Source of the DNA: a virus
IMG/VR virus record: IMGVR_UViG_3300028030_000059
Coordinates: 1 to 23,945 of that record
Strand: one strand, 5' to 3'
Length of the DNA: 23,945 bases
Shown here piece after piece: positions 1 to 23,945 of the stretch. Positions within the stretch are counted from its first letter, which is position 1, and every line of letters starts with the position of its first letter. The translations under genes were made by a program, and so were the position numbers. The notes beneath the pieces were generated by a model. The model was not told the DNA's origin, did no database searches, and saw only the letters and a program-made list of their open reading frames with translations.

Positions 1-69
1 TTTTAATTTTATTAAATTAAGATTACATTACCTAGCACCTTGACAATAGCCTAAAACACTCCTCGTCAC

Positions 70-112
70 TTTTTGCCACATTTTTGACACATTGCCACCA
101 AAATGCCACCAA
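70..112 (+). repeat. Cluster of four TGMCAC repeats (possible iterons or operators)
   Basis: TGCCAC occurs at 74-79, 93-98 and 104-109, and TGACAC at 85-90. The start-to-start spacings are 11, 8 and 11 bases. The first pair is a tandem 11-mer (TTTTTGCCACA then TTTTTGACACA) and the second pair shares TGCCACCA. Spacing close to one helical turn suggests a protein binding on one face of the DNA. Whether it is an origin-binding or repressor site cannot be told from sequence. Confidence 0.4.
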
Positions 113-235
113 GCACCAATCTCAACATAGTTTTACTAAATAATAACAGACCCTAGTCAACCAACAACCTACAGCCAATAATTCCAACTTATCACTGATA
201 ATTTAATTAATTTTAATTTAAATCTAATAAAAATA

Positions 236-245
236 TAGATATAAT
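236..245 (+). promoter_or_regulatory. Promoter -10 element TAGATATAAT upstream of primase gene
   Basis: The ten bases TAGATATAAT contain a perfect TATAAT and lie 36 bases before the start of the 281 gene. The identical 10-mer occurs at 4148-4157 upstream of another gene, and the core GATATAAT recurs at 8983-8990. No TTGACA-like -35 box is seen at the usual distance, only A/T-rich DNA. The repeated placement upstream of genes supports a shared host sigma-70-type promoter. Confidence 0.5.
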
Positions 246-280
246 AAAAATCATATTCAAAATTATGGGAGATTTAATTA

Positions 281-2659
281 ATGGCAAAAACATTGCAAGT
301 AACGTATACCACCCTTCCTTTTACTATAGTTAGAAACTCAAAGGGCAAAAAAGTATATAGAATAGGCAACAAAGAATTCCAATCACCTCCTTTCCACCAA
401 TGGAAGAACTCACAACTCCAAGCCGGCTGGGAAGAGCTACATACTATCTACAAATCCCAACATGTAGCTATTATGCCTAAAAGTGAACTTATAGTTTTAG
501 ACTGTGATACCCTAGAAGCAACTAAACAAATAGAAAGTTTGGTCAACTCTTATAACCCATATATAGTTGAGAGCGACAATGGCACTAAGCATTTCTACTT
601 TACTCCTACCAAATATGCAGAGGATAGTTTATTATATAGTAAGCCGAATAGAGTAAGAGTTAATGATATAGACATCTTAAAAGGTACTAGTTTAGTATTT
701 ACTCCTTCAAAGGGCAATAGTACTAAAAAGTTAGTTTCACAACCCAGTCAACTCTGCCCAATACCCAACTTTCTAGTTGATTGGCTACAACAGCAACTTA
801 TGGATACAACTATAAAGCAGGCGCAAAGCTCCTACACCTCTATAGTTACATATATGGGGCCAAGGCTTAAGACATTGCTGGAGCAATATAGAGGGAGTGG
901 TAACAATAAACAATACATTCAACAGGCTCTCCAGTATCTCTGCCCTAGCAGGTATAGACCCATGCTGCAGCCAGACTACGACCCAAATAGAGTAGAGGAT
1001 GGAGAGGGCGTTAATTTCCTTCAAGCACTAGTTGCTAGGCTTGGAGTAGACCCTACCATATCTCTAGAGCAGGCTAAGGAGCTTATTAGCATAATAGCTT
1101 TAGAGTGCTGGGATAGTCCATTGCCAGAACAGCGCCTGGAGGTGCTTCTAAATTCAATACCAACTCAGACCTACCCAGATGGTAGTCCTGTCTTTGTCTA
1201 TGACCCTAATATAACAGAGACAGGGCTGTTGGCTGCATTCGAGGGCGACGGGTACTACCCTGTTTATAGAACGCCGGACGATGTCTATCTACTGACCAAC
1301 TCCAATGGAGGTGTTATAAAGACCACAGGGCTGCGTAATCTAGCCACTACCCTCTCATCCTCCAACTTCTCCCTCCTGCTCAATGGGAAGGCTATACCAT
1401 CGGCGCAAATTCATAAAGCGCTTAAGATGTCTATAGAGTATATGAGGACGGTGAAGATAGTTGAGAACCCTAAGAAGTCGTTTGGGTTTTATACTGAAGA
1501 CTATATACCTTATTTTAACACATATAAACAGACTAAATATCAGGCCATAGTTAGAGGGGAGCATTTAAGAGAGGACAAAGCCACTCAAATACCTCCAACG
1601 ATTCGTAAGGTGATAGCCAATGTATTCTATGACCATATTACAACTCCCGGCATTAATGGCGAGTTCAATGACAAGATAGTTATTAATTTTTTGCAATTCA
1701 TTGCGCATAAGCTTAAGACACTAGACTATAGTCCACTAGTCTTTCAATTCCTTGGAAGAAAAGGTTCTGGGAAAGACACCTTAATAGATGTAATTCTAGG
1801 CTCTTTGTTTGGAGGGGTTGGTGAAAGGCCCATCAAGGCCTCTAATTCCCAATTCAATGAAGACTATGCTACAAAGGCCATAGTCAAGATAGATGAGGCG
1901 AGGGCTACAGACACACTAAGGGAGGAGCTTAAGAAGCTCTCTGGGGCTGTTATTACTAGAGTAGAGCCTAAAAGGCAGACTGCTTATTATATACCCAACA
2001 TATCAACCTATTTTGTGACCGCAAATAAGGCGGCGCTGCTCAAGGAGGACATACTAGATAGGCGCTTTATTCCCATCCTCAGCTTTAAAGCCCCTATACT
2101 TACTATAGAGCGACTGCATGAGAGGATACAGTTGGAGCTGGAGGATTTTGCCCTATATCTAAGAGACCTGCCTCCTATTGACATGATTACATACACAAAT
2201 GCGACCAAGTGGCAGGACAATGCAATAAAAGAGGTTGAGGATGCTCAGGAGGCAGACGAGACCACCAGTGGGTTGATACTTAAGTTCCTCGACAAGCTAT
2301 TTATAGGTGAGGTGGATGAAGAGCTTTTCTACCAGGTGGCAGCAATACCTGGAGTGATAGTCTATGCACGTGCTGGTGTTAATAGACTCTATATACCTCT
2401 GGTCAATAAGCCTGGTGTGTATCTTAAGTCGTCACGCGATGAGGTGTTCACAGGGTTGACTAGACAGAAAATAATAGAGCGTAATCTTATAGGAGAGGTG
2501 CAAGGGCTTCACTCTAAAATAGTGATAGATAGTAATTTAAAGACATATAATAAGAGAATACATAGGCTTAAGGTGGAATTTACACCTAAATACCCACAAT
2601 ATAGTAAGGCACAGAGCATTATTCAAAATATTTTGGGTGGAATTGAGCCAATAGAATAA
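281..2659 (+). CDS. Primase-polymerase fused to SF3/D5-type replicative helicase
   Basis: The 792-residue protein probably makes primers and unwinds the replication fork. The N-terminal part looks like an archaeo-eukaryotic primase/prim-pol domain: D74 and D76 sit in IVLDCD (metal-binding motif I), H104 in GTKHFYF (motif II), and D131 in VNDIDILKG (motif III). The C-terminal ATPase has a Walker A GRKGSGKDT at 492-500, Walker B IVKIDE at 534-539, a sensor-like YFVTAN at 577-582 and a DRR arginine-finger candidate at 593-595, as in virus D5/DUF5906 helicases. The architecture resembles the NrS-1 phage primase-polymerase. The start has a weaker, distant GGGAG nine bases upstream. It is followed after 10 bases by the Dda-like helicase gene, so the two are likely co-transcribed. 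Base composition is clearly less AT-rich than genes further right, roughly 45-55% GC in sampled lines between 1200 and 2160. Confidence 0.88.
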   Translation: MAKTLQVTYTTLPFTIVRNSKGKKVYRIGNKEFQSPPFHQWKNSQLQAGWEELHTIYKSQHVAIMPKSELIVLDCDTLEATKQIESLVNSYNPYIVESDNGTKHFYFTPTKYAEDSLLYSKPNRVRVNDIDILKGTSLVFTPSKGNSTKKLVSQPSQLCPIPNFLVDWLQQQLMDTTIKQAQSSYTSIVTYMGPRLKTLLEQYRGSGNNKQYIQQALQYLCPSRYRPMLQPDYDPNRVEDGEGVNFLQALVARLGVDPTISLEQAKELISIIALECWDSPLPEQRLEVLLNSIPTQTYPDGSPVFVYDPNITETGLLAAFEGDGYYPVYRTPDDVYLLTNSNGGVIKTTGLRNLATTLSSSNFSLLLNGKAIPSAQIHKALKMSIEYMRTVKIVENPKKSFGFYTEDYIPYFNTYKQTKYQAIVRGEHLREDKATQIPPTIRKVIANVFYDHITTPGINGEFNDKIVINFLQFIAHKLKTLDYSPLVFQFLGRKGSGKDTLIDVILGSLFGGVGERPIKASNSQFNEDYATKAIVKIDEARATDTLREELKKLSGAVITRVEPKRQTAYYIPNISTYFVTANKAALLKEDILDRRFIPILSFKAPILTIERLHERIQLELEDFALYLRDLPPIDMITYTNATKWQDNAIKEVEDAQEADETTSGLILKFLDKLFIGEVDEELFYQVAAIPGVIVYARAGVNRLYIPLVNKPGVYLKSSRDEVFTGLTRQKIIERNLIGEVQGLHSKIVIDSNLKTYNKRIHRLKVEFTPKYPQYSKAQSIIQNILGGIEPIE

Positions 2660-2669
2660 AGGAGACACT

Positions 2670-4091
2670 ATGGACCTACAACAATTTATTAGCGATTTTC
2701 TCAATGACCCTAAAGAGCAGGAGGCATTTATATCAGGACCTGCTGGTTCGGGGAAGACTACCAGCCTTATAAATATTATTGAGTATTTAAATAAGAATGA
2801 GATAGCTTATCAAGTGACTGCGTATACTCATAAGGCTACTGAGGTACTTAAAAGCAAGCTGCCTCCAAATACTCCTATATCAACTTTACATAGTTGGTTG
2901 AAGAAAAGACCTAGCCTTAACACCAAAGCAACCAATATTAATAATGTTATGGTGAGTAGACAGTACGGCAAGCCTCAGCCTTTGCAGCTACTTATAGTTG
3001 ATGAATATAGCTTTGTGGGCGAGAGGGACTATTGGTCTATAGGAGAGCTACAAGACCCAAATCTTATTCCCTATAAATGCCCACAATGCTCTAATATAGA
3101 TGAGGGGCTAGAGGAGGTGTTTAAACTATCTAGAGAGGCTAAATGCTCACAGTGTGGGTATACATATGATACTGATAGTCTACAAAGAGCTAAAGCGTAT
3201 GAGCCACTTAAGGTGCTATATATAGGTGATGAACATCAACTACAGCCGGTGAAGGACATTGCAGCAGTGAGACCATCAGGCACTTATCAAATACACCTAG
3301 ACACTATACATAGGCAGGACAGTGAGGACCTATTAAAGATAAGTCAGCAGGTTAGACAGATGATAGCCACCAATACACCAACCAAATTACAGCCATCAGA
3401 GCATTTTAAAAGAGGTGTGGACATAGTCCAGCATTATATAGACAATGCCTCTACCTCCAAGAGACTCTTAGCATATACTAATCTACAGGTACAGCACTAT
3501 AATAAGACTATAGAGGAGCAGATGCACGGAGCTATAGTTGAGGAGGACTTATCCAATAGAGTGCTTTATAATTACACTATTAGGCAGGAGCTGATGATTA
3601 AGAGTAGTCAAAGGCTTACGACAGACTATAAATTTGGGCTTAATGATAGCATATTGGCGTGCGATAATAAAACATTTGTTAATGCTTTGAGCAGATTTAG
3701 TCCTTTGCAGACTATAATAGAGATAGTTAAGCTGTATCCATCAGCGCCCTTTTACCTCTTAAATACTAATAAGGGGCAAATAATTGTGATTCTTGGCACT
3801 TATAGTAATAAGGCTGTTAGGCAGGACGTTAATAGGCGACTGGTGGAGGCTAATCAACAGCATGGGTTTGACTCTACTAAGAGTAAAAAGGCATATAAGA
3901 TAGCTAAGGTGTTAAATGATATAGTCCATAAGGTAGATTTTAACCATTGTCAGACTATACATACAACCCAAGGGCAGGAGTATGACCATATTTATATAGA
4001 CATTAAAGATGTTACAAAAGCACCTAATTATTTAAATCTTTTATATGTAGGTGTAACCAGGGCTAAACAATATTTATATTTTAATGCCTAG
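2670..4091 (+). CDS. Dda/RecD2-like SF1B DNA helicase with zinc-ribbon insertion
   Basis: This 473-residue protein is a 5'-3' type superfamily 1 helicase like T4 Dda. Visible motifs are Walker A GPAGSGKTT (23-31), motif Ia YTHKATEV, motif II VDEYS (110-114), motif III IGDEHQLQP (185-193), motif IV-like LDTIHRQ (210-216), motif V HTTQGQEYD, and motif VI YVGVTRAK near the C terminus. Between motifs II and III is an extra segment with two CxxC knuckles (C137, C140, C159, C162), which should bind zinc. T4 Dda lacks such an insertion as far as I know. AAAGGAG lies five bases before the ATG. It probably acts in replication initiation, fork restart or removal of bound proteins. The gene is followed by a palindrome and a fresh promoter, so it ends the first transcription unit. 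Confidence 0.88.
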   Translation: MDLQQFISDFLNDPKEQEAFISGPAGSGKTTSLINIIEYLNKNEIAYQVTAYTHKATEVLKSKLPPNTPISTLHSWLKKRPSLNTKATNINNVMVSRQYGKPQPLQLLIVDEYSFVGERDYWSIGELQDPNLIPYKCPQCSNIDEGLEEVFKLSREAKCSQCGYTYDTDSLQRAKAYEPLKVLYIGDEHQLQPVKDIAAVRPSGTYQIHLDTIHRQDSEDLLKISQQVRQMIATNTPTKLQPSEHFKRGVDIVQHYIDNASTSKRLLAYTNLQVQHYNKTIEEQMHGAIVEEDLSNRVLYNYTIRQELMIKSSQRLTTDYKFGLNDSILACDNKTFVNALSRFSPLQTIIEIVKLYPSAPFYLLNTNKGQIIVILGTYSNKAVRQDVNRRLVEANQQHGFDSTKSKKAYKIAKVLNDIVHKVDFNHCQTIHTTQGQEYDHIYIDIKDVTKAPNYLNLLYVGVTRAKQYLYFNA

Positions 4092-4092
4092 A

Positions 4093-4116: not shown

Positions 4117-4147
4117 CTTCACAATTTAATATTTATTTAAGATTATT

Positions 4148-4688: not shown

Positions 4689-4699
4689 TGCCTAGCATC

Positions 4700-4859: not shown

Positions 4860-5543
4860 ATGTCAACTATAAAGCACAAAGGCCGCAAGGTTAAAACAAT
4901 GGTAGGACCACTTAAGTGGGTGTTCATTAAAGGTGAGGGTAGAAATACTGCAATGCCAGGCCAACCAGAGCGCTATCAATACTTAGCTACTTTAAGAGTA
5001 AAAGAGAATGGCCCAGAGCATAAACACATGCTAGAGCAGATTATGGCAGAGTGGGAAGATTATAAAAAGAAATTTGGGGTTAAAGGTTTACCAGCATCTA
5101 ATGGCATTAGACCTTATATGATAGATGACCCAAGTGGAGAGATAGACCCTGCCACAGAGAAAGTGCGCAAAATCCCAAGCGGCGAGGTAGATATTACATT
5201 TAAAACCGATGTGAAGTGGCCAGATGGGAAGCCAAAGGTAATTAAGGTGTATGACGCCAAGGGTAATGATATCACCACCTGGTATCAAAACCTGGACGGG
5301 TACATAGGGGATGGCTCTACCGGAGTTATTCATGGCATAGCACATGCAAATAATGCAGGCGGGAAGCACAAAGTTAGTCTATATTTATCTGCAGTACAAT
5401 TAGCTAAATTTGTTAAAGGTGAGGGTGATGCACCTGATGTAACTGAAATTGATGGAGAAGAGATAGATATAGGTGATAGTGTGGCAGCTATCAATGAAAC
5501 TAACCACGCCGAGAATAATCCTGGAGAAGACGTACCAGTATAA
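4860..5543 (+). CDS. Single-stranded DNA-binding protein (T7 gp2.5/DUF2815-like)
   Basis: The 227-residue protein fits phage SSBs of the T7 gp2.5/DUF2815 type, which coat single-stranded DNA and recruit polymerase and helicase. Supporting features are a basic N terminus, a beta-rich core (VDITFKTDVKW, KVIKVYDAKGNDIT), the typical IGDGSTGVI segment (149-157), VSLYLSAVQLAKFV (172-185), and an acidic C-terminal tail from about 187 onward that in gp2.5 is the protein-interaction tail. AAGGAG lies five bases before the ATG. The gene sits behind an elaborate hairpin leader and ends in a strong terminator, so it forms its own expression unit. Confidence 0.78.
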   Translation: MSTIKHKGRKVKTMVGPLKWVFIKGEGRNTAMPGQPERYQYLATLRVKENGPEHKHMLEQIMAEWEDYKKKFGVKGLPASNGIRPYMIDDPSGEIDPATEKVRKIPSGEVDITFKTDVKWPDGKPKVIKVYDAKGNDITTWYQNLDGYIGDGSTGVIHGIAHANNAGGKHKVSLYLSAVQLAKFVKGEGDAPDVTEIDGEEIDIGDSVAAINETNHAENNPGEDVPV

Positions 5544-5623: not shown

Positions 5624-6124
5624 ATGAAATATTATAGAGTGATACATTTTAATAATTATGCAGAGCTAGTTAATTTAAGAATAGATATAAATAAAGGCAA
5701 TTTAGAAGACTATAAATCTTATATTTATAAGAGTAAAGATTCTTATCCACTATTGCATGAAGTAATATGTAATACTACTAGAGGTTTTGCGCTTGGAATA
5801 ATAGTAGAGGAAATAGATGAGTCCGAGAAATTGCCATTTAATCCTCAAGATTACCCTATTAGTTTTATTTTCGGAGATGTGCATAAGCAGTTTAATAATA
5901 TGGATGAGCTAATGCAGTTAGTAAAAGCTGAGGGAAAATATATTGAAGAGCGTAAAAAGTTAACAAAGTATGCGAGGGCGACCAAAAAGCTTAATGAAAT
6001 ACTATCTACATTAAGTTCTGAAACTATTGCAGATATTAAAGCAAATACCACCTACGAATTAAGAGATGTTTTTGGCAAGCTAGAATTGTTAGATGAGCTA
6101 GGATATATTAAAGATGAGGAGTGA
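5624..6124 (+). CDS. Unknown protein upstream of DNA polymerase
   Basis: I do not recognise this 166-residue protein. The first half is mixed alpha/beta with many aromatic residues (MKYYRVIHFNNYAELV), including a hydrophobic strand FALGIIVEEI around 55-64. The second half (about 100-166) is charged and helical. AAAAAGGAG precedes the ATG by five bases. Its stop codon lies just before the polymerase start, and the polymerase Shine-Dalgarno sequence is inside its last codons. This implies translational coupling and a role linked to replication, but no function can be assigned. Confidence 0.75.
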   Translation: MKYYRVIHFNNYAELVNLRIDINKGNLEDYKSYIYKSKDSYPLLHEVICNTTRGFALGIIVEEIDESEKLPFNPQDYPISFIFGDVHKQFNNMDELMQLVKAEGKYIEERKKLTKYARATKKLNEILSTLSSETIADIKANTTYELRDVFGKLELLDELGYIKDEE

Positions 6125-6126
6125 AC

Positions 6127-7956
6127 ATGCAAGAGATAAAAGAAAAGCTTCAGCAGTCTATAGAAAATAGAGGAATTAATTTTCCTCTAGATATTATAGA
6201 TAGTGTTGATAAATTAAATAACTATCTACAAAATGTTGATGCTGGCACAGTTGCCATAGATACTGAAACAGCTGGTTTCTACGGCAAGGTTAGACTTATT
6301 CAGCTATTTAATGGCAAATCTCTTGGCTTAATAGATATGAAATATTTCAAATCAAATACTACTTTATTAATAGATAGTAGTATGGTGGAGTATAATGCTA
6401 AATTGCTTGATATTATTGGGATTTTCAACAAATATAATATTTTATGGGTAGGTGCTAATATTAAATATGAATTTAAAGTGCTTGGTTGGCACCCTACTAA
6501 ATGGGCAGACGTTTTAGCAGCAGGGCAAATTGCTTTTTATGCTTATAGGCCTAAAAATAACACATTAGATACCTTTGCACGAATTATTTACTCAAATGCA
6601 TATGATAATATAGATAAAAAAGTTATGCAAAAGAAGGGATTTGGCCTAGAGGAAGAACTAACACCAGAGCATTATGAATATGCACTACTAGATGCTTACT
6701 ATACTTATGCCATATTTTTTAGTCCTAAAGTACAAGCAGTGTTCCATAATAATACTGCTTTTTTCTTAGATAATAGTTTAATACCTACTATTATGCAAGT
6801 AGAAGAAAATGGCTTAATGGTGGACAAAGTAGCAGTAGCTAAAGAGATAGCCAAAATAGAGATAGAGCTTATGCAATATGAAGATATACTTGGTGGTATT
6901 AATCCTAATAGTTGGCAGCAAGTTAGAAAGGCATTAAATTCTACTGAGTCAGATGAAACTGCGTTATTAAAGATAGTTGCAGAAAATAGTGAGAGAAGTA
7001 AACTAGCAGAGGCTATTTTGCAAGTACGTAAGCTTAGAAAGGCTAAAGTTATGTTAGAGGCTTATGCCAATACTGATGAGAATAATAAGGTTTACACTAA
7101 CTTTAATATCTCAGGAGCTGTTACTGGTAGAATGTCTTCTAGTGGGAAATTCCTAAAGCACGGTATCAACGCACAACAAATTCCTAGAAAATATAAACAT
7201 ATCTTTATGTTTAATACAGAGGATACTATAGCAGTAAATATAGATTTTAGTACTGCAGAGCTTAGAATGGGCGCTGCTGTAATGAATGAAAAAGTAATGG
7301 CAGAAGAGCTTACACAAAAGCTAGATATTCATAAAGTTACAGCAGCAGCACTTAATGGAAATATTCCTCTAGAGCAAGTAACCAAAGAGCAGCGACAAAT
7401 AGCAAAAGGTATTAACTTTGGACTATTATTTGCCATGGGAGCAGAAAGATTCCAACAATATATGTTCACTAGTTATGGTATATCTATTACATTAGAAGAA
7501 GCAAATAAGTATAGAGAATTCTATTTAGGCAAATACAAAAATATTGCCAAATATGCTAAGTATTGGTGGAATAACTACAAGACAGAGCCAGTGGTTAGTC
7601 CTCTAGGTAGGAAGAAAATGGCAAATATGGGTACAGATGCTGTAAATTATAGTACTCAGAGTGGAATTTCTGAAACTACTAAATTGTCTTTAAGAAGAAT
7701 ATCAAAATTTTATCCTGAATATTTAAAATATATTTTTAACATAGTTCACGATAGTATAAACTTGCGAATTCCAATTTCAAAAGATTATAAGACAATAATT
7801 GAAAATGTATCAAAAGAAATGCTGAGGGCATGGGTAGATATTCAAAATAGCAAGATAGTGCATATTAAGACTATTCCAATGGCTGTTGAGTATGAGTATA
7901 TAGATATAGATGGTACAAAGGTATCTAAAGAATTGTGGTCAGATATAGACATATAA
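6127..7956 (+). CDS. Family A DNA polymerase with 3'-5' exonuclease domain
   Basis: This is the replicative polymerase, 609 residues from the chosen start. An in-frame GTG at 6121 overlaps the previous stop, but AGGAG at 6117-6121 is five bases before ATG 6127, so I start there. Residue numbers here subtract two from a GTG start. The exonuclease domain has Exo I IDTET (D45, E47), Exo II NIKYEFKVL with Glu at 115 where Asp is normal, and Exo III YALLD (Y185, D189). The polymerase domain has motif A VNIDFSTAELR (D373), motif B RQIAKGINFG (R423, K427, F431) and motif C VHDS (H541, D542, S543) where HDE is usual. It is shorter than T7 gp5 (704 aa) and E. coli Pol I, and has no 5' nuclease domain; the separate downstream gene supplies that. 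It works with the SSB, primase-helicase and ligase of this arm. Confidence 0.95.
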   Translation: MQEIKEKLQQSIENRGINFPLDIIDSVDKLNNYLQNVDAGTVAIDTETAGFYGKVRLIQLFNGKSLGLIDMKYFKSNTTLLIDSSMVEYNAKLLDIIGIFNKYNILWVGANIKYEFKVLGWHPTKWADVLAAGQIAFYAYRPKNNTLDTFARIIYSNAYDNIDKKVMQKKGFGLEEELTPEHYEYALLDAYYTYAIFFSPKVQAVFHNNTAFFLDNSLIPTIMQVEENGLMVDKVAVAKEIAKIEIELMQYEDILGGINPNSWQQVRKALNSTESDETALLKIVAENSERSKLAEAILQVRKLRKAKVMLEAYANTDENNKVYTNFNISGAVTGRMSSSGKFLKHGINAQQIPRKYKHIFMFNTEDTIAVNIDFSTAELRMGAAVMNEKVMAEELTQKLDIHKVTAAALNGNIPLEQVTKEQRQIAKGINFGLLFAMGAERFQQYMFTSYGISITLEEANKYREFYLGKYKNIAKYAKYWWNNYKTEPVVSPLGRKKMANMGTDAVNYSTQSGISETTKLSLRRISKFYPEYLKYIFNIVHDSINLRIPISKDYKTIIENVSKEMLRAWVDIQNSKIVHIKTIPMAVEYEYIDIDGTKVSKELWSDIDI

Positions 7957-7965: not shown

Positions 7966-8967
7966 ATGGAACCAATTTTTAGCAATGATATAGAAGATAT
8001 TACTATAAATTCAAATGGAGAGAACACACCTAGACTAGACTCTATTCTCTTGATAGATGCTGATACAATAATAGTAACAACAGTGTTAGAATGTCAAGCT
8101 AAAATAGAGACCTTGCCAAAAGAGTGCTATACAGAGGAAGAATGGAGGGAGATTGAATCAAATCCTACTTTCAATGGAGAGTACTATTTTGATTACTCTG
8201 AAGATGAACTAGTTGAGGTACTAAAAAATAGACTACAGACTATTTATGACAATTCTGGTGCCACTTCTGCAGAGCTTCATTTATCACTAGGACGTCAGTC
8301 ATTTAGATATAGTTTATATCCAGAGTATAAGGCAGGTAGAGATGAAAGAGCCAAAAAGTATAATGCAGAAATTAGCCCATATGCTTTAGAATTTTTGAAA
8401 AATCATGTTATTAATAACTATAGGGAATATCCTAATGTAATAAAAGCAGTAGGCTATGATAAGATAGAGGCTGATGATGCAGTGGTTTATTTAAAGAAAA
8501 AATACCCTAATAAATACACACTATGTGCTATCGATAAAGATGTATTATATAGTGTACCAGGAAGACATTTTAATTACTACACCTCTTCTCAGTGGAATAT
8601 CCCTATGCAGTGGGTAGAGGTACAAGAGAAGGACCCGGTCAATTGGTTTGGTATGCAATGTATAGCAGGTGATAAGACCGACAATATTAAAGGCTTGGCT
8701 GGCTATGGTCCCAAAAAGATAGCTCAATATTTATCTGGAGATAAACTCAAGGGAGTAACTATTAAAAAGTTGCATGATGCACTACCTTATATACCAGAGC
8801 ATACTGAGGAAGAGATGTGGGAAAAAGTAGTTAATCTTTACGAAGCTTGTGGTCTAACTGAAGATGATGCACTATTAACAGCTAGACTAGTAAGCTGTAA
8901 CCAAGTAACTAGCTTAAATCCTCTAAAAATTAAATTATTTAAAAATAAAGACGAAAATTTAATTTAA
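7966..8967 (+). CDS. 5'-3' exonuclease / flap endonuclease (T7 gp6-like)
   Basis: The 333-residue protein belongs to the PIN-like FEN family that removes RNA primers and 5' flaps. Metal ligands are visible: ILLIDADT (D31, D33), EADD (168-171), AIDKD (D190, D192) and GDKTDN (235-240). YKAGR at 121-125 matches the conserved basic segment, and GYGPKKIAQ at 246-254 is the helix-3-turn-helix DNA-binding element. An insertion of about 45 residues after the first motif (about 42-90) is acidic. The ATG follows AAGGAG and the gene lies nine bases after the polymerase stop. It supplies the 5' nuclease activity that the polymerase lacks. Confidence 0.9.
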   Translation: MEPIFSNDIEDITINSNGENTPRLDSILLIDADTIIVTTVLECQAKIETLPKECYTEEEWREIESNPTFNGEYYFDYSEDELVEVLKNRLQTIYDNSGATSAELHLSLGRQSFRYSLYPEYKAGRDERAKKYNAEISPYALEFLKNHVINNYREYPNVIKAVGYDKIEADDAVVYLKKKYPNKYTLCAIDKDVLYSVPGRHFNYYTSSQWNIPMQWVEVQEKDPVNWFGMQCIAGDKTDNIKGLAGYGPKKIAQYLSGDKLKGVTIKKLHDALPYIPEHTEEEMWEKVVNLYEACGLTEDDALLTARLVSCNQVTSLNPLKIKLFKNKDENLI

Positions 8968-9010: not shown

Positions 9011-9223
9011 ATGAAAATAGAAAATTATATTAAGAATCTCAAAACAAAGCATAATACTGAAGAGATATGTAAAATGTTGCATATCTCTCAACCCATGTTG
9101 TCGAGATATAGTAAGGGCGATTTTCTACCTAGCTTGAGAGTTGCTAAACATGCTTTTAAAAATCATCAGGTGGTTTTATACCCTTTTAGTAAAGAGGCAG
9201 TATCGGAGGACTATAATGTTTGA
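9011..9223 (+). CDS. Small helix-turn-helix DNA-binding protein
   Basis: The 70-residue protein has a Cro/XRE-like helix-turn-helix: NTEEICKMLHIS forms the first helices and QPMLSRYSKGDFLPS the recognition helix and turn (about 15-42). It is the first gene behind an extended -10 promoter and precedes the nucleotide-metabolism genes, so it may regulate this unit or its own promoter. Its last eight bases overlap the start of the next gene, and the Shine-Dalgarno of that gene lies inside it. Confidence 0.7.
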   Translation: MKIENYIKNLKTKHNTEEICKMLHISQPMLSRYSKGDFLPSLRVAKHAFKNHQVVLYPFSKEAVSEDYNV

Positions 9224-9998: not shown

Positions 9999-10000
9999 TT

Positions 10001-13608: not shown

Positions 13609-14927
13609 AGCCTTATCCTCATCAAATAGATGCAGCTAAAAGAGCGTATAAATTATTAAAGCAATATGGTTATGTGTACATTATAGGTCTACCTAGGAGT
13701 GGAAAAACTTATACAGCAATATTAACATGTGAAGAAAGTCCTAGACAACTGAATGTATTAATATTAACTAAAAAGGCAGCTATAAAAGGTATAGAAAAAT
13801 TCACCAATTTACCTCACTTAAAACAAAAATATACTGTAACTAACTACGAGCAACTTGGTAAGGCAATAGTAGATAAAAAAGGTAGAGTAAAATCAGTTGA
13901 ATTAAAGTATAATCCTAATGACTATGACCTGGTAATTATTGATGAGAGTCATAACTATGGCAAATTAGGTAAACCTGCCAATAGATACTATGTATTAAAA
14001 ACGTTTTGTAAAGATAAACCACATATTCATTTATCAGGTACACCATATGTGGAATCACCTAACCAAATCTACCATCAAATGGCTATTAGTAAATACACAC
14101 CTTTTAAACATAAAAATTTTTATGAATTCTTTAAAGAATATGGAATTCCAGAAGTTAAGTATATAGGCAATAGGACTATCAATGATTATTCTAAAGCAAA
14201 GCCTGAACTTTTAGATGTAATAGATAGTTTTACTATAAATATAGGTGGATTTGAAGCATCTATTGAAGATAAACTAATTTATGTATCCTTACCAGAAAGA
14301 GTTAAGTTAATTTATAATAAATTAGTAAAAGATAGCCAATGCCTAGTTAAAGTTGATAGATGCAAGCAGTGTGGAAGAATAGTTAATGATGCACTATGTC
14401 AAAATTGTAAAAGCATAGATTTAATTAACAGTACTTATAGAATTATTTGTGATACTACTTCTAAATTACGTACTTCTTTACACCAACTAGAAGGAGGTAC
14501 TTTAAAAATTGAAGACATGGACAATGATGGCGAGATATATAAAACTACTCTGCATTTTGAAAGTGCAAAATTACTCTGGATAATGAAAAATATCCCACTC
14601 CATAAAAAAGTAGGTGTTATGAGCCATTTTAAAGAAGAGCAAGAATATATTAAGCAATTTTTACCTCAAGCGGAAGTATATAGCTCAAATGCTCACGCTG
14701 AGGGAGTAGATTTAAGTCACCTTGATTATTTTATTATTTATAGCCAGGACTATAGTGGTGCCAGACATGTACAGCGACGTAGACGAATTGCCAATAGTGA
14801 GAAAGACAATAGTAAATTGGAGGTATACTATTTGCTAGTTAAAAATGCAATAAGCGAGCAAGTTTATAAAGCAGTTAGCAATAAACTAGATTTTAATAAT
14901 AGTGTATTCCAGAGATTAACTATATAA
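13605..14927 (+). CDS. SF2 DNA helicase/ATPase with zinc-knuckle insertion
   Basis: The 440-residue protein has superfamily 2 motifs: a Q-like PHQIDAAKRA at 5-14, Walker A GLPRSGKTY (28-36), motif Ia LILTKK, DEAH-type IDESH (112-116), and motif III LSGTP (143-147). A second RecA lobe has VGVMSHFKEEQEYI, the motif V-like AEGVDLSHLDYFI, and motif VI VQRRRRIAN (389-397). Between the lobes is a four-cysteine knuckle (C253, C256, C265, C268). It resembles phage SNF2/UvsW-like helicases used in replication or recombination. The start overlaps the previous stop by four bases. It ends with a stop that lies inside the strong Shine-Dalgarno of the following small gene. Confidence 0.85.
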   Translation: MKPYPHQIDAAKRAYKLLKQYGYVYIIGLPRSGKTYTAILTCEESPRQLNVLILTKKAAIKGIEKFTNLPHLKQKYTVTNYEQLGKAIVDKKGRVKSVELKYNPNDYDLVIIDESHNYGKLGKPANRYYVLKTFCKDKPHIHLSGTPYVESPNQIYHQMAISKYTPFKHKNFYEFFKEYGIPEVKYIGNRTINDYSKAKPELLDVIDSFTINIGGFEASIEDKLIYVSLPERVKLIYNKLVKDSQCLVKVDRCKQCGRIVNDALCQNCKSIDLINSTYRIICDTTSKLRTSLHQLEGGTLKIEDMDNDGEIYKTTLHFESAKLLWIMKNIPLHKKVGVMSHFKEEQEYIKQFLPQAEVYSSNAHAEGVDLSHLDYFIIYSQDYSGARHVQRRRRIANSEKDNSKLEVYYLLVKNAISEQVYKAVSNKLDFNNSVFQRLTI

Positions 14928-16407: not shown

Positions 16408-16968
16408 TTATAATTCCAAATATCCATGTTTGAAAGTTCCTGCTCCCTTACCTAGCCCATATTTTTCTCTATTAATTTCAACATGATTTGGGTCTTTTGC
16501 TATAAATCTAAAGCTCCATTTATTACTATGCTGAGAGGCATATTTTCTAAGTAATTTGGCAATAATTGCATTTTCTTTTGCGTCTTTATAGCCTTTTGTG
16601 CTTATTATATCTAGTGCAAGTCCACTTTGATGAATAGATTTTTTCTTATATCCATCCGTACTAGTTACCCAATAACCTGGTCTATTTCTTTTATAAATTC
16701 TATTTTGCATTGCTGCTGTTCTAAAGCCACCTTCTGGAGCTATTTTTACTGGATGACCTAGTTTCTTAGCATATTCACTAAAGGATTTAAAGAACTCCTT
16801 AGTATCAGGTCGTAAATCTGTAGCATTACTATTATTGACTAGGGATATTTCTGACTGTTTTGTAGGAAACTTTAAGTCTTCATTATTAAATTTAGGTAAT
16901 TCTAATTTAGTAGTATTATCTGATTTTGAACCAAATAGTACTTTGTTAATCCAACTATTACTCCACAT
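16408..16968 (-). CDS. M15-type peptidase (peptidoglycan hydrolase)
   Basis: The 186-residue protein has the zinc site of M15/VanY-type D-Ala-D-Ala carboxypeptidases and L-Ala-D-Glu endopeptidases: SIHQSGLALD (H113, D120) and DPNHVEI (H162), with the substrate-side GGFRTAAMQNRIY at 80-92. There is no signal peptide and no separate cell-wall-binding domain; the first 55 residues are polar linker-like. It lies between the 864-residue ejection-type protein and the HExxH protein in the virion operon, with no holin seen, so it may be a virion-associated lysin that opens the cell wall during DNA entry. An endolysin role in release is equally possible. Confidence 0.82.
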   Translation of the reverse strand: MWSNSWINKVLFGSKSDNTTKLELPKFNNEDLKFPTKQSEISLVNNSNATDLRPDTKEFFKSFSEYAKKLGHPVKIAPEGGFRTAAMQNRIYKRNRPGYWVTSTDGYKKKSIHQSGLALDIISTKGYKDAKENAIIAKLLRKYASQHSNKWSFRFIAKDPNHVEINREKYGLGKGAGTFKHGYLEL

Positions 16969-19563
16969 TTAGCAATCCTTTCCATATTTTTCAGTAACAT
17001 ATTCCACTATGTCTTTAACCATGTCTTTTGGTGCTTTAATACCAAAATCAGCCTCAATATTTTTAACAATTTTATTAACATGATAGTCTATAATAGCTTG
17101 TAGTCTTTTAGCAGCACGTTCTTTATTTTTAATGTTTACTGTATGATTAAATTTATCTAATTCTCTAAAATATTTAACCTTATCTAAATATTTGCCTGCT
17201 TCTTCAACTACTCTACCTCCTACTACATCATTAACAGCATGTTCTCTAATATATGATAACATATAGTTGCCTAAGTTGGCTACATCTATATTTCTTTGCA
17301 TTTCAGGGGTTAATTTAACTACTTCACTAACTCCATCAGTATTGTAAATTTTTTCAATAGTAGTAGCTCTCTTTTTGGCATTAAAATGTTCCAAAGAAGG
17401 TGGTAGTTCCTTGCCTACTATCTCCCAAATTTTTTCTCTTAATCCTGGATTAATATTTTCTACTACTTTTTGTATTTTCTTTAATTTAGGTACTGTTAAA
17501 CTAATTTTGCCAAGCTTTTCTAGCATCCTATAGTCTTTAGCTGCCTCTGTAGGTAAATATTTTAATATTTGTTTAAATATTTTAGAAGTAGCATATACTA
17601 AAGCTCTTTCTTTTAAATCTGAAGATATACCACTACCTTCAAAAGTACCTGGTTTATATAGAGCTCTAATAGCATCATCTGTTTTAAATACATCAGAGAC
17701 TAGTTGAAGTGTTTTTTGAAGTTCTTGCCCTTCTGGTGTTACAAATCCTTTAGTAGCTAGATTTTTAGCTATAGTGCCCCAAGTAATGTCATCTGGATGC
17801 TTATCTAAAAAACTATTAATAATTAATTTCTCAAAATCCTGGGCATTTTTATCTCCTACTAGGTATTTAATATTTGAAAAAATTTCTCTACCTGCATCTT
17901 TATTTGTCTGAATTATTTCTAAAGCTCTAGTAGGTTCTATTTGTGGTTTCTTACCTCTTTTCTTTAAAGTTCTAAGAATTGCATCGCCTATTTTAGAATC
18001 TGCCACATCTGTAGCCAATTTATATTCATTACTAGCTTGTCTCCATAATCTATAATCATGAGGGTGTAATAATGCCTGTAAACTATCATCTAGTTGTTGG
18101 CGTATACCTTGCCAAGCATGTTGAATTTTGCCTGAGCTATTTCTAATTATATGATTAACTAATGGCATAGCTTCAATAAGATTAGTTGGATGTAATGGCT
18201 CTTCTTCTAATAATGTTTTTAATTGTGTTTTTATAGGCTTAATTTTATCTATCTCATCTATGATAGTATCAGGGAGTTTAAATGGAGGTATATCTTTTTC
18301 TATACCTTGTGGTACATATGCTTTATCTATTTGCCATTTTATTCTAGTATAATTATTATGAGCTGCTTGAATACTTTCTTCTAATTGTTTTGCTATATCT
18401 GGCAAAGTAACATCAACATGGCTCATTTTGTTTAAATCATGTATCCTAGCAACTCTAGCAGATTCTAATGCCTTATAGTATTTAGGTGACATTCTAGCAA
18501 GGGCTGATTTAAGTACTGCACCACTATCTCCAGCATGGTCTAAAATAGATAGTACTCTATCATGCATTTCTTTACCAGTAGATTCATTTATTTCTTTCCA
18601 AGTTTTATATACTTTGTCGGCGGTTACGTCATCATAATTAAGCTGACTCTTGTAATACTCATAAACATCTCTAGCAGCACGTTCCCCGAACATTCCCAAA
18701 AGTTTATCTATAGCATATGCAGCCCCTAGTGTTACAGTACCTGCTAAGGCACCTGCCGCAGCAGACTCTTCCACATCTTTACCCTCTGCTCTAGTATATC
18801 CATAACCCAGTGCCCCTGCAATTCCGGCAGTTAATAGTTTAGACTTTGCAACTGGAGAGGCTAAATCTACAGTTAATTGTCCTAAATTGTAAGGCGATAT
18901 AATATCTTTATTTTCCCTACTATGTTCTAATGTTTTTGCTAAATCTGCTATTTGTTCAACTGATTTTTTCCATTCTTCATCATCCTTAAAGCCAATAGCA
19001 TGTGCTATATCTTGCTCTATTGCATTAATTCCAGCTAATCCTCTAACAATACCTTTTACATAGTCATTATCCATTCCAAATTGTGATAATGTATAATTTA
19101 AAGATATATCTTTTTCTTGCTGATTTAGTTCTTTCTTTTTGTTTATAAAATAATTAACTATATCTTCATCTGATAATCCAGCTTTTTTGGCTTTATCAAA
19201 ATTATATCCATCATCAATATCTTTTAAATGCTCTACTATGTCTGAAGCTGATAGTCCAGCTTTTAAAGCATCGTCATAATGATATGAATATCTAGGTGAA
19301 TTTTTAAGCTCTACTACTTTTTCTAATTCTTTTAAATATTTCTTAGGTTTATTTAATAACTCTGTTACTTTGTCTACTTGCCAATGCACTAATTCATCTG
19401 CTTTTTTAGCAATTTCATCTAAGGTAACTATAGAATCAAAAGCTTTATCTACCATAGATTTATTAGTATCTTTACTCTTAGATAACTTAGTAGTATCTAT
19501 AGAGTTGTTAGTATTATCAGCGATAGTACTGTTATTTGTAGAAATATTCATAGTATTTTCCAT
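16969..19563 (-). CDS. Large internal virion / DNA ejection-type protein
   Basis: I infer from size, position after portal and composition that this 864-residue protein is an internal virion protein delivered with DNA. The N terminus is Asn/Ser/Thr-rich. Two copies of a short motif occur at 95-113 (YHYDDALKAGLSASDIVEHL) and 120-139 (YNFDKAKKAGLSDEDIVNYF), 25 residues apart; such repeats are common in phage ejection proteins. A Gly/Ala-rich hydrophobic region at about 243-292 (LLTAGIAGALGYGY, AAAGALAGTVTLGAAYAI) could cross or perturb a membrane. The remainder is long, charged and helical. GGGGAGG precedes the ATG, which overlaps the portal stop by one base. No lysozyme or transglycosylase motif is evident. 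Confidence 0.75.
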   Translation of the reverse strand: MENTMNISTNNSTIADNTNNSIDTTKLSKSKDTNKSMVDKAFDSIVTLDEIAKKADELVHWQVDKVTELLNKPKKYLKELEKVVELKNSPRYSYHYDDALKAGLSASDIVEHLKDIDDGYNFDKAKKAGLSDEDIVNYFINKKKELNQQEKDISLNYTLSQFGMDNDYVKGIVRGLAGINAIEQDIAHAIGFKDDEEWKKSVEQIADLAKTLEHSRENKDIISPYNLGQLTVDLASPVAKSKLLTAGIAGALGYGYTRAEGKDVEESAAAGALAGTVTLGAAYAIDKLLGMFGERAARDVYEYYKSQLNYDDVTADKVYKTWKEINESTGKEMHDRVLSILDHAGDSGAVLKSALARMSPKYYKALESARVARIHDLNKMSHVDVTLPDIAKQLEESIQAAHNNYTRIKWQIDKAYVPQGIEKDIPPFKLPDTIIDEIDKIKPIKTQLKTLLEEEPLHPTNLIEAMPLVNHIIRNSSGKIQHAWQGIRQQLDDSLQALLHPHDYRLWRQASNEYKLATDVADSKIGDAILRTLKKRGKKPQIEPTRALEIIQTNKDAGREIFSNIKYLVGDKNAQDFEKLIINSFLDKHPDDITWGTIAKNLATKGFVTPEGQELQKTLQLVSDVFKTDDAIRALYKPGTFEGSGISSDLKERALVYATSKIFKQILKYLPTEAAKDYRMLEKLGKISLTVPKLKKIQKVVENINPGLREKIWEIVGKELPPSLEHFNAKKRATTIEKIYNTDGVSEVVKLTPEMQRNIDVANLGNYMLSYIREHAVNDVVGGRVVEEAGKYLDKVKYFRELDKFNHTVNIKNKERAAKRLQAIIDYHVNKIVKNIEADFGIKAPKDMVKDIVEYVTEKYGKDC

Positions 19564-21374
19564 TATTTTGCCTCCCCTGCTAGTCTATTTTGTGTAATTT
19601 GAGTATTAGGTTGTCCACCAGCTCTTGGATTATTTCCTGCTAATTGTTCTTGTAAATGTGGTTGAGGTTGTAGCATATTTGCAGTTTCAATAAATAATTG
19701 AGCCATTTCAGGACTATTTCTAGTTTTACTGTTTTTTATACTCATAGCTACTGCTTTTAAGTATGCACCAGGATTCATTTGCAGTAATACCTGTCCAGGA
19801 GTGCCATTTAGTATAGTTTCTATTAATACTTGGTTACGCTCTACTTCGTTATTCATAGGAACTATGTCAACCATTAGGTCATAGTCGGTAAATGTCAAAT
19901 CAGTATCTGGGTCTATAACTGGTTCATATACAGGCATACCATTCTCATCTGTCTCCTGTTCACCAGTTAAGGGATTTATAGCTTCTCTCCAGATAGGTCT
20001 ACCAGTTTGAGGATTAATTAAAGGCTGATTTAATGCTAGCCATTTTTGTTGACCCTCTTCACTTAGACTAATCATATAACTAGCTTTAAAGTATTTAGAT
20101 ATCATTCCTAATGTATCTTGTGCATCTATTTGATAGAAGGTGCGTAACTTGGTGTCAATATATCGTAATGCCATAGTTGTTGCATTTTGCTGTAGTTGGA
20201 CTTTTTTACCACTATCATATTGAAAAGCCATTCCCAAGAAACTATCATTTATATTAAGTACTCTTTGTATTCTATCAAAAGCTTTGTCTATAATTATAAA
20301 TTGCTCTTGTAGTTCTTCTGTTAATTTTTCAATTTTAATTCCTTGAATATTAATTACAGGAATAACAGCGTTTACTCTATTGTAGGCATCAATAAAGTCA
20401 TCTAAATTGTCTACTGCTGATTCTTCTACAAATGCTTTTTTCCCACCAATTAGTAATTGAATTTGAACTAGTGCTTGATTAATTGCATCTTGACTAGCAT
20501 ATACATCCTCAAATATTCCATAAAATTCAGCTTTATCAGAATCATTTAGCTTAGTAATTCTAATAGGAAATTGACTAATAGGGTAATCTAATGTTTCTGA
20601 TGAAATTATGGTGTCGCCTACCCATTGAGTTAAGTTAATAGTGTTATCTGGCATCTTGGTATAACTTTGTACCAATAAATATAGTTTAGTCTCGCCATAC
20701 TCAGTTATAAACCTAGTGCCAAAGCGCTCTTCTACTTCTGCCTCTTCTATTCCAAGTCCATTATAATATTCCTCTAGCCTATTTAAATTTATGTTAGGGT
20801 TGATTTGTTTAATAGTTTCTTCTGATACCCACTTAAATCTATCTATATATCTAGCATCACTATAGTCCGCTTTTGTGCTCAAAGGGTCTAGTAGTAATTC
20901 TAATGGATTAATGGGCTCTTTAACTATTTTGTAGATAGTTCTACCAAATTTATCTCTCCTAATTTTTCCAGCCTTTGTATCTGGTTCAATAGAAATTTGA
21001 CTAGCAAAAATTCCTGTTAAAAAGCCATAAAGTTTAACTTCATCCATTACAACACCAAAGCTATTATGTTCATTAACATACTTTACAACGTCTGACAATA
21101 AATTAGCAATAGTTACGTCTTCGGGTTGACGTGGTAGAATATTATAGTCACCTATTACAGCACTATAGTATCCAATTAACTGGCGAGTAAATAGTTTAAT
21201 AATATTAAAAGTTTGAGGAGGTTGTCCAACTCGCCTCAATGCCTCCAATTGTTCCTCTGTATATTGTCGGTTATGATATAAATCTATAACATGCTTTGCT
21301 TTATCCCTAGACTCTTTGTACACATTATAGCTTGCGCGTATTCTATGTTGTAATTCATTTAATGTAGGTCTCAT
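19563..21374 (-). CDS. Portal protein (P22-like)
   Basis: The 603-residue protein forms the ring through which DNA enters and leaves the capsid. Features of the P22-type portal family are visible: an N-terminal helical segment (ASYNVYKESRDKAKHVIDLYHNRQYTEEQ), the conserved PPQTFNIIKLFTRQLIGYY at about 52-70, INPLELLLDPLSTKADYSDARYI about 155-177, and a long helical barrel-like part with DPDTDLTFTDYDLMVDIVP. The C terminus is Gln/Asn/Pro-rich. It is shorter than P22 gp1 (725 aa). GAGGGG precedes the ATG. The gene starts two bases after the coiled-coil protein stop, inside the virion operon. Confidence 0.88.
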   Translation of the reverse strand: MRPTLNELQHRIRASYNVYKESRDKAKHVIDLYHNRQYTEEQLEALRRVGQPPQTFNIIKLFTRQLIGYYSAVIGDYNILPRQPEDVTIANLLSDVVKYVNEHNSFGVVMDEVKLYGFLTGIFASQISIEPDTKAGKIRRDKFGRTIYKIVKEPINPLELLLDPLSTKADYSDARYIDRFKWVSEETIKQINPNINLNRLEEYYNGLGIEEAEVEERFGTRFITEYGETKLYLLVQSYTKMPDNTINLTQWVGDTIISSETLDYPISQFPIRITKLNDSDKAEFYGIFEDVYASQDAINQALVQIQLLIGGKKAFVEESAVDNLDDFIDAYNRVNAVIPVINIQGIKIEKLTEELQEQFIIIDKAFDRIQRVLNINDSFLGMAFQYDSGKKVQLQQNATTMALRYIDTKLRTFYQIDAQDTLGMISKYFKASYMISLSEEGQQKWLALNQPLINPQTGRPIWREAINPLTGEQETDENGMPVYEPVIDPDTDLTFTDYDLMVDIVPMNNEVERNQVLIETILNGTPGQVLLQMNPGAYLKAVAMSIKNSKTRNSPEMAQLFIETANMLQPQPHLQEQLAGNNPRAGGQPNTQITQNRLAGEAK

Positions 21375-21376
21375 AA

Positions 21377-23050
21377 TTACCCCTCAAAATCAGCTGGATT
21401 TGGTTTATTTTTTGGCTGACTATTGTTACTGCTATTAGTAGTTTGATTATTGTTACTAGTTTGTGTACTAGATTTTTTGCCAAATATTTTTACTGGGTCA
21501 AATTGTGGAGCTGTTTTAGCCCATTTTTCATAGTCATGTTTTAAAATTAAATAATTATAAGGTGTTATTCCCTTTAAACTATTTATAGTTGCTCTAGTAT
21601 TATTTATTAAATAGTCTTTAAAGCTATTAAGAGAAGTAACAGCTATGTCCGGTTGTGACCAGTCTCCTTTGGTAATAATATCTGAGTACATAGCACGTTC
21701 AATATCTGTTACAGCGGCGCCTGACATCATTTTAACATACGCAGCAATTGCTGCCTTTAATTTAGTATCAAAAGCTACTGAGTTTAATAATTTTTCAGTA
21801 TCTCCTGGTGTATATTTTCCTGACACTATTTTAGCTAGGGATTTTTGAATTTGAGGTAAAACACCTCTATCTATTTTACCTGTTTTAATACCCTTAACTA
21901 GTTGGCTAGTTAAATCAGTAAATACTTTTGATAGTGCTACTTTTTGTCGTATCTCTTTTCTATCCTCAGCAGCTAGGGTTGTTTTACCTTGTATCTTTTT
22001 AGCAACTTGTAAATTGGTATTATTAAACTTTAATTTATCTATATTTTCAAAAAATTGTGACTCATCTACTACAGGTACTGTTTTACCATCTTGTAATTCT
22101 ATCATTAATTTTTTATTCTTTAATTTTTTGTTTTGTAAGTCTAGTTTCTTTGACTCTATATCTAGCGGTGTAGTGGTCTTAGTTTTCTCTAAGTCTAATT
22201 GCTTCTTTTGTACTTCTAATTGTTTTTTAAGTATATCTAGTTGGTCTTTAGGGCTTGCTGGTTGAGCATTGGCCTGCAAGTAATCTTGTAAAGTAGCATC
22301 TGGATGTTCTTTTAAGAATTCTTGTAGGTCTTTTAGTTTTAATTCACTAATTTTTGACGCTAGTTGTGCTTGGTTAGTAGTTGCTTCTAAACTGGATTGA
22401 TAAGCTTGTTCCTCTAATTGAGACCTAATAGCTCCTCTAATTATATCTTGTGCATTTTTTAGTTCCTGCTTTTTCTTTTCTCTTTCTGAAGGTGGTAAGT
22501 AGTTGAAGTAATTAGTTTCCCTAACTATAGCTTCTGTAGGAACTATAGAGGTACTACCATCTGTGTTAATAGTTTTAACAAAATTTTTTAATAATGCTTG
22601 ACGTTGCTCAGGTGTCATCTTAGTAATATCTACATTGGGTAATAAATTTTGTAGCTCTTCTCTATCATGTTCTAGGTCAATAGGTGCCACACCATTTAAT
22701 TTAAAGTGAGTTCTTAGCTGCTCTCTTAATACTGGATTTAATTTAATAATAGTATCAGCATCTTTAGCCTTTCCATCAATTAAGGCACTAGTAGCATTTG
22801 TTAAATCTTTTGCATTGAGATAACTACTAACTATTTGGTTTTGAGCGTGTGCTGCACTTACTTGCTGCATTAATTGCTCTAATTGTAAGTCTGCTGCTAG
22901 TCTACCTCTAGCATCTGGTGCATAATGTATACCATCAGTAGACTTAAATCCATCTATATAAGCTTTCATTTTAAAGGCTTCTCTTCTGCGCTGCTCAGCT
23001 CCTACGTCTGCTCTTGCTTTTATCCATCCTGGTTGAGTATCCGCTAACAT
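21377..23050 (-). CDS. Coiled-coil virion protein of unknown role
   Basis: The 557-residue protein is not recognised by family. It is strongly helical and charged. A Lys/Gln/Leu-rich coiled coil runs from about 266 to 320 with repeated KKQL/KKLDLQ units. The last 30 residues are a Ser/Thr/Asn/Gln low-complexity tail (SSTQTSNNNQTTNSSNNSQ). It lies between the small Gly/Ala-rich protein and the portal, so it is likely an internal virion or ejection protein. AGGAGATAAA directly precedes the ATG. Confidence 0.7.
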   Translation of the reverse strand: MLADTQPGWIKARADVGAEQRRREAFKMKAYIDGFKSTDGIHYAPDARGRLAADLQLEQLMQQVSAAHAQNQIVSSYLNAKDLTNATSALIDGKAKDADTIIKLNPVLREQLRTHFKLNGVAPIDLEHDREELQNLLPNVDITKMTPEQRQALLKNFVKTINTDGSTSIVPTEAIVRETNYFNYLPPSEREKKKQELKNAQDIIRGAIRSQLEEQAYQSSLEATTNQAQLASKISELKLKDLQEFLKEHPDATLQDYLQANAQPASPKDQLDILKKQLEVQKKQLDLEKTKTTTPLDIESKKLDLQNKKLKNKKLMIELQDGKTVPVVDESQFFENIDKLKFNNTNLQVAKKIQGKTTLAAEDRKEIRQKVALSKVFTDLTSQLVKGIKTGKIDRGVLPQIQKSLAKIVSGKYTPGDTEKLLNSVAFDTKLKAAIAAYVKMMSGAAVTDIERAMYSDIITKGDWSQPDIAVTSLNSFKDYLINNTRATINSLKGITPYNYLILKHDYEKWAKTAPQFDPVKIFGKKSSTQTSNNNQTTNSSNNSQPKNKPNPADFEG

Positions 23051-23058
23051 TTTATCTC

Positions 23059-23673
23059 CTATAGTACATCTGGGTCTGTTTTCTTAATAGGTATTAGTTC
23101 AGATAAGCCTGTTACAGTTTGACCCCAAAAATTACCTATTTGCGATTGAGTAGTAGCCATTTGGTTACCTCCTTGATAAATAGCATTGGCTGTATTAGCC
23201 GCAGCTCCGGCCATAGATGCATTAATTGCATTTTCCTGCATTAATCCTTGATTTAGTACACTATTTTTTAAATTAAATGCTTGTAATTCGCCTTTAGCTC
23301 TTGCATTAGCTTCTGCTATGTCTCCTTGATAACCTATCTTAGTATCTAAGCTTAATTCTATTCCGCTATTTTGTAGTCCTCGTTGAGCTAGTTTCTCATG
23401 TAAGCTTTTCTGCGCTTGTTGGGTAGCCTGTTGGATTCTAGTAATCTCTGCTTCTGATAAAGTACTACCAGTTAAATTTTTGACATAAGATACTAAATCT
23501 TCTTGTAATGGTCCGTAAATTTGTTTCCATCTTTCATAGCGTTGTTTTTGAAATTCTAACTGCTCTTTTTGCAACTTGGTCGATTCTTTAATGGCTCTAG
23601 TTTGTGTATCCTGAGCATCATCTAAAAATAATCCCTGTACCAGTGCACCCGCTGCAGCACCTGCTAATTCCAT
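23059..23673 (-). CDS. Small internal virion protein (ejection-type)
   Basis: The 204-residue protein starts with a Gly/Ala-rich hydrophobic segment (ELAGAAAGALVQGLF) and continues as a Gln/Glu/Lys-rich helix (TKLQKEQLEFQKQRYERWKQIYGPLQ). The region AQKSLHEKLAQRGLQNSGIELSL and the following AEANARAK resemble small internal virion or ejection proteins of podoviruses, similar in role to P22 gp7 or T7 gp14. The match is by composition and pattern, not by a diagnostic motif. AAGGAG lies five bases before the ATG. Its first ten bases overlap the end of the GNAT gene. Confidence 0.65.
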   Translation of the reverse strand: MELAGAAAGALVQGLFLDDAQDTQTRAIKESTKLQKEQLEFQKQRYERWKQIYGPLQEDLVSYVKNLTGSTLSEAEITRIQQATQQAQKSLHEKLAQRGLQNSGIELSLDTKIGYQGDIAEANARAKGELQAFNLKNSVLNQGLMQENAINASMAGAAANTANAIYQGGNQMATTQSQIGNFWGQTVTGLSELIPIKKTDPDVL

Positions 23674-23945
23674 TGTATCTCCTTATATCCTAGTTTATAA
23701 TATAATTGTTGAGCTTTTTTATTATCTTTAAAATTTGGAATAGTTATTAATTTATCTTTATAATATTCTTCTATTAAAAGATTAAAACTTTTTAAATATC
23801 TTCTATATTTAGGCAAGATATAAGTATGGGTAATAACTATAATCAAATCTTTTTCAAAAATGGTAGTAAATCCTACCATTTTATTTGCTTTATACAACCC
23901 AAAAACATAATAACCTACAGTATCTAATACTGCTCTATATAAATT
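23664..23945 (-). CDS. GNAT-family N-acetyltransferase, N terminus beyond window
   Basis: The minus-strand frame stays open to the window edge, so the gene is partial; the first visible residues are NLYRAVLDTVGYYVFGLYKANKMVGF. The TTG at 23897 is not needed as a start. The pattern matches GNAT enzymes: strands around YYVFGLYKANKMVGFTTI, then THTYILPKYRR where acetyl-CoA binding normally occurs, and NKKAQQLYYKLGYKEI at the C terminus, a typical GNAT ending. GNAT genes occur among virion genes of several podoviruses, substrate unknown. It overlaps the small virion protein gene by ten bases. Confidence 0.7.
   Translation of the reverse strand, partial: NLYRAVLDTVGYYVFGLYKANKMVGFTTIFEKDLIIVITHTYILPKYRRYLKSFNLLIEEYYKDKLITIPNFKDNKKAQQLYYKLGYKEIQWN

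Follow-up and report, generated by a model that had tools for sequence, protein, structure and literature searches.

Absence of GATC from a podophage genome fragment and its possible causes in the host

Known GATC-poor phages and the closest relatives

Counterselection of GATC in enterobacteriophages such as phiX174 and T7 was described by McClelland (1984) and by Deschavanne and Radman (1991), both as cited in PMC5014478. According to that paper, the force behind GATC-free phages, recognised since 1984, is still called unclear, and Deschavanne and Radman are credited with the proposal that MutH damages under-methylated phage DNA. Roughly one viral genome in ten, usually that of a non-temperate virus, shows complete or near-complete elimination of sites (Rusinov et al. 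2018, PMC6286503).

We analysed a window of 23,945 bases, which is the entire IMG/VR record IMGVR_UViG_3300028030_000059, a genome fragment; all statements on its GATC content cover these bases. The window resembles the enterobacteriophage cases in that a virulent phage has lost GATC completely or almost so (3 of 97 expected sites are left in a T7 stretch), and differs from them in being AT-rich and in having many relatives with normal GATC. With the type II site elimination of PMC6286503 it shares a 4-bp palindrome, an observed/expected ratio below 0.1 and more than 15 expected sites; that class pairs the eliminated site with a host restriction enzyme, whereas the window is known from phage sequence alone. 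The loss of GATC in the window is ordinary in kind, and it is the comparative evidence that is useful.

The phage in question is a lytic podophage, a distant relative of Edwardsiella phage KF-1 (Kafunavirus), and the window is one part of its genome. Its portal protein is 38-41% identical to the portals of KF-1, Vibrio phage VPMS1, Pseudoalteromonas phage PH1, Dickeya phage Amaethon and two Manatee Spring genomes, and its polymerase is 26-29% identical to polymerases of the Kafunavirus group. The amino-acid identities to KF-1 itself (portal 40%, polymerase 26%) place the window outside the genus Kafunavirus but within the same wider group. As in the window, replication and structural genes face each other in this group (KF-1, Amaethon, VPMS1 and PH1), and a P22-like portal, a thymidylate-synthase-like enzyme with Asp177, a dCMP deaminase, a ligase and a VRR-NUC-type nuclease are common to both. 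The GC content of the group is 40-48% versus 33% in the window. All four isolated members are GATC-depleted (observed/expected: VPMS1 3/161, PH1 3/159, Amaethon 28/148, KF-1 41/162), KF-1 and Amaethon less strongly than the window. We take the hosts of all four (Vibrio, Pseudoalteromonas, Dickeya and Edwardsiella) to belong to Dam+/MutH+ groups. We regard the isolated relatives as virulent, and no integrase was seen in the window.

The window is approximately 95% coding, with rightward replication genes and leftward peptidase, portal and ejection genes (Table 1). No end repeat was found in the 23,945-base record; complete relatives measure 40-43 kb, so the window amounts to roughly half a genome. 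An open reading frame of 131 amino acids (9995-10390), lying between the thymidylate-synthase-like and dCMP deaminase genes, resembles by eye a short dihydrofolate reductase and has no Pfam match.

Table 1. Predicted features of the window and of related loci discussed in the text
Feature	Position	Strand	Evidence
Primase-polymerase/helicase (Prim-Pol, DUF5906)	281..2659	+	Pfam; KF-1 group homologues
Dda/RecD-like helicase	2670..4091	+	AAA_30, UvrD_C_2
gp2.5-like single-stranded-DNA-binding protein	4860..5543	+	phrog_112
Family A DNA polymerase	6121..7956	+	PF00476, E 8e-37
5'-3' exonuclease	7966..8967	+	PF02739 below curated cut-off; phage exonuclease matches
Thymidylate-synthase-like enzyme, Asp at E. 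coli Asn177 position	9216..9998	+	PF00303, E 5e-60; E. coli ThyA alignment
dCMP deaminase domain fused to dATP/dGTP diphosphohydrolase domain	10387..11016	+	PF00383, PF18909
MazG-like pyrophosphatase	11197..11856	+	phrog_1992
ATP-dependent DNA ligase	11858..12721	+	PF01068, PF14743
VRR-NUC/Hjc-like putative nuclease	12780..13139	+	PF01870, PF08774, both below curated cut-off
Superfamily 2 helicase (ResIII)	13605..14927	+	PF04851
VanY-type peptidase, probable endolysin	16408..16968	-	PF02557
P22-like portal protein (query for relatives)	19563..21374	-	PF16510, E 2e-65
DNA ejection protein	23059..23673	-	phrog_21132
Dam-family methyltransferase and PDDEXK_11 (PF20472) nuclease pair	L092:1459-2728; also L132, L135-L138

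GATC counts and codon choice in the window

The initial annotation, made by reading the letters, had claimed that GATC is missing from both strands and that base frequencies would predict about 70 sites. Counting bears this out: GATC occurs 0 times on the plus strand of positions 1 to 23,945 and, being palindromic, on neither strand, in coding and non-coding parts alike, against 73.0 sites expected from base composition. The comparison of tetramers with a second-order (maximal-order) Markov model, which the annotation had proposed, predicts 47.1 sites and places GATC lowest among all 256 tetramers (z = -7.9); the Poisson probability of zero sites given 47.1 expected is approximately 4e-21. When codons were shuffled synonymously (300 shuffles of 22 genes that preserved the proteins and the overall use of codons), 36.5 ± 4.2 sites were expected and no shuffle had fewer than 25; the z score of GATC was again the lowest of the 256. 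Strong selection against GATC in the window, already proposed in the annotation, is thus well supported by both controls. With 0 sites against 47-73 expected, the window falls among the eliminated sites as delimited in PMC6286503, the expectations here being Markov and base-frequency values rather than that paper's own statistic.

The absence is kept up through synonymous codons. In the genes of the window, aspartate followed by C is encoded 28 times by GAC and never by GAT, versus 330 GAT and 90 GAC in other contexts, as the annotation had described. The example motifs that it gave are real, and their positions are off by no more than about one 60-base line: GACC lies at 1168, 12221 and 12590 (given as 1201, 12222 and 12601) and GGTC at 16299, 19877 and 20885 (given as 16300, 19908 and 20884). 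Other palindromes are retained, also as first reported, including GGCC (17), GTAC (65), CATG (48) and GATATC (at 5268, 10861 and 20098). The sole other low palindrome is TCGA, with 6 sites observed versus 10.6 expected under the Markov model, largely because CG is generally scarce in the window.

Distribution of GATC across the family

Scans of IMG/VR with the window polymerase or portal as single-protein queries returned zero relatives, and a search with a portal alignment yielded 80 loci. The comparison covered 71 non-duplicate family sequences no shorter than 8 kb. Of these, 29 have less than 10% of the expected number of GATC sites, including 10 without any; 17 have 10-40%, and 25 have more than 40%, which is near normal. 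Zero-GATC records of 37.6-44.8 kb (L055, 0 in 44,134 bases; L059, 0 in 44,843; L024, 0 in 37,571), together with one of 40,259 bases that has a single site (L014), stand beside relatives with normal counts, for example L025 (92 observed, 132 expected) and L008 (69 observed, 65 expected).

In the tree built from 91 portal rows, the label "absent" requires 23 changes, at least 18 of which are forced by well supported branches. The label is more clustered than at random (0 of 500 shuffles needed as few changes), as would be expected if kin share hosts in part. Next to L008 in this tree, the window has a long branch, so that its exact placement is unsure. Inheritance of GATC loss across a whole clade was rejected, as L007 and L008, its nearest relatives by portal, have retained GATC. 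Because the trait flips often among relatives with the same core genes, determination by the host is more likely than determination by the phage; the trait follows something variable, probably the host. With at least 18 gains or losses on one tree, the family is a good test bed; once hosts are assigned, comparison alone could separate mismatch repair from restriction.

GATC is by far the commonest eliminated palindrome in the family: strong depletion was seen in 34 of the 71 sequences, versus 8 for CATG, 3 each for GTAC and CTAG, 2 for GGCC and 1 for GCGC, and AGCT, CCGG, ACGT and CGCG are strongly avoided in no member. Neither adenine methyltransferases (PF02086, PF05869, PF01555) nor a MutH/Sau3AI nuclease domain was found in 50 related phage records, a provisional result given that many of these records are fragments. 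A phage-borne adenine methyltransferase, which these three families did not reveal in the 50 records, could have accounted for the GATC-normal members.

Mismatch repair, restriction and other explanations

Selection by some GATC-directed cleavage in the host very probably accounts for the loss of GATC in the window. That the agent is host Dam/MutHLS mismatch repair has, in our estimate, an even chance, and we consider it more likely than restriction. Under this scenario, fast-replicating phage DNA would be under-methylated, and once MutS and MutL had activated MutH at a mismatch, MutH could cut one or both strands at GATC sites that lack methylation; mutants free of the site would gain, and the genome would be purged of it. 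For the window's phage we infer both the host and the nuclease.

Support comes from a second phage family, the T7-type phages, for which stretches of 20-25 kb were compared. Where the host is presumably Dam+/MutH+, GATC is nearly or entirely gone: besides the T7 stretch mentioned above, observed/expected counts are 0/90 in ICP3, 0/89 in phiAS7 and 0/92 in KP32. Where the host is one that we take to lack Dam, GATC is retained (phiKMV 120/81, gh-1 139/89, Fri1 80/85, P-SSP7 81/81, RHEph21 133/73, S-CBP4 80/76). In this small, hand-picked sample, 10 of the 12 phages agree with the pattern. The misfits are the pelagiphages HTVC019P (0/72) and HTVC011P (0/58); HTVC010P, which is not T7-type and has the same listed host, has 70/58. 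To our knowledge, neither Dam nor MutH has been reported from Pelagibacter, and GATC-free phages of such a host indicate that other causes of GATC loss exist. A Dam+/MutH+ host thus seems to be sufficient for GATC loss, not required. E. coli was the only MutH-positive genome among 14 controls; a set of 274 gammaproteobacteria includes 60 with MutH, 78 with Dam above the cut-off and 48 with both, and Dam and MutH go together in this class. Two further observations count against MutHLS as the agent: phiX174 with GATC restored had no measurable fitness loss without stress (PMC5014478), and the bin of one relative, described below, has no MutH match yet carries a Dam-like methyltransferase beside a nuclease.

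The next explanation, plausible but short of an even chance, is a host type II restriction-modification system of GATC specificity that cut unmethylated phage DNA until the sites were lost; it could be a system of the DpnII, MboI or Sau3AI type, or one that pairs a Dam-like methyltransferase with some other PD-(D/E)XK nuclease. Phages are documented to evade restriction by losing sites, most strongly so when they are non-temperate (PMC6286503), and the losses of CATG, GTAC, CTAG and GGCC counted above argue that restriction is also acting on this family. L008, for example, keeps GATC yet is nearly devoid of GTAC (2), CTAG (1) and GGCC (0). This 23,124-base IMG/VR relative also has few CATG sites (7), a pattern suggestive of evasion of several restriction specificities.

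A depleted relative (L023 = L087; 12 GATC sites versus approximately 100 expected) was binned in a gammaproteobacterial genome in which we found no MutH match. In this bin, the gene of a DpnM-like methyltransferase (match to the DpnII methyltransferase, E 5e-63) overlaps that of a PDDEXK_11 (PF20472) nuclease. A tblastn search with the two proteins found the pair adjacent in 5 further genomes, out of 10 with PF20472 among the 274 gammaproteobacteria. The pair looks like a candidate GATC restriction-modification unit, linked to the phage by binning only; this link is weak, and the PDDEXK_11 protein is only a putative nuclease. DpnII was not found in four metagenome bins, a genome scan for relatives yielded no more than five contigs, from metagenome bins that are doubtful as a guide to the host, and gene neighbours gave weak and mixed host matches (Pelagibacter, cyanophage, Cellulophaga).

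Restriction also has to face the finding that T7-type phages are as a rule free of GATC where the host is Dam+/MutH+ and has Dam as an orphan enzyme. The initial annotation had read the footprint as most simply that of a host GATC restriction system. Its host origin is supported by the at least 18 tree flips and by the lack of a phage-borne GATC nuclease or adenine methyltransferase of the searched families in the 50 related records; a restriction enzyme is not established, as phages of Dam+/MutH+ hosts without GATC restriction are equally GATC-free. The annotation is right on selection and too narrow on cause.

The nucleotide metabolism genes suggest a further element. In the alignment with E. 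coli ThyA, the thymidylate-synthase-like protein has Asp in place of Asn177, a change that shifts preference to dCMP and tracks with cytosine-modified phage DNA (PMC8670742, PMC6400193); the other residue singled out in PMC8670742, His147, is canonical in the window. The enzyme probably acts on dCMP. Asp177 is present in all 28 family sequences found (L001-L006 among the loci), some of which are overlapping copies of one record, and the whole family may carry modified cytosine in its DNA. With Asp in all 28, there is no contrast by which Asn/Asp177 could be correlated with site avoidance. Modified cytosine, if present, would leave the family open mainly to insensitive enzymes, GATC cutters included. 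Protection might then have two layers, which we consider unlikely: modified cytosine would block most cytosine-sensitive restriction enzymes, and the remaining cytosine-insensitive cleavage, associated with adenine-methylation systems (GATC, CATG, GTAC), would be escaped by eliminating sites. If true, this would explain why GATC dominates, and why strong avoidance is never seen for AGCT, CCGG, ACGT or CGCG and is very rare for GCGC and GGCC.

If GATC were avoided not because of cleavage but to evade Dam methylation itself, or a SeqA/Dam-linked control of how the phage is replicated, transcribed or packaged, the same link to Dam+ hosts would result; we judge this improbable, since such control would act at few sites and here all are gone over 24-45 kb, within genes too. 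Still less credible is a GATC-specific nuclease of the phage's own, used for instance in breaking down host DNA, that would force the site out of the phage genome. The window does encode a small VRR-NUC/Hjc-like nuclease, and VRR-NUC is also annotated in VPMS1 and Amaethon. Against this, the MutH/Sau3AI domain is found in 0 of 50 relatives, KF-1 and Amaethon keep 41 and 28 GATC sites with the corresponding gene annotated as endonuclease or VRR-NUC, and the trait flips frequently on the tree despite a shared gene set. An artefact (chance, codon bias, or assembly or library preparation that removed GATC-bearing fragments) has a negligible probability and was rejected, as it is contradicted by the Markov and synonymous-shuffle controls, by a record that neither starts nor finishes at GATC, and by independent contigs and cultured isolates that show the same GATC pattern.
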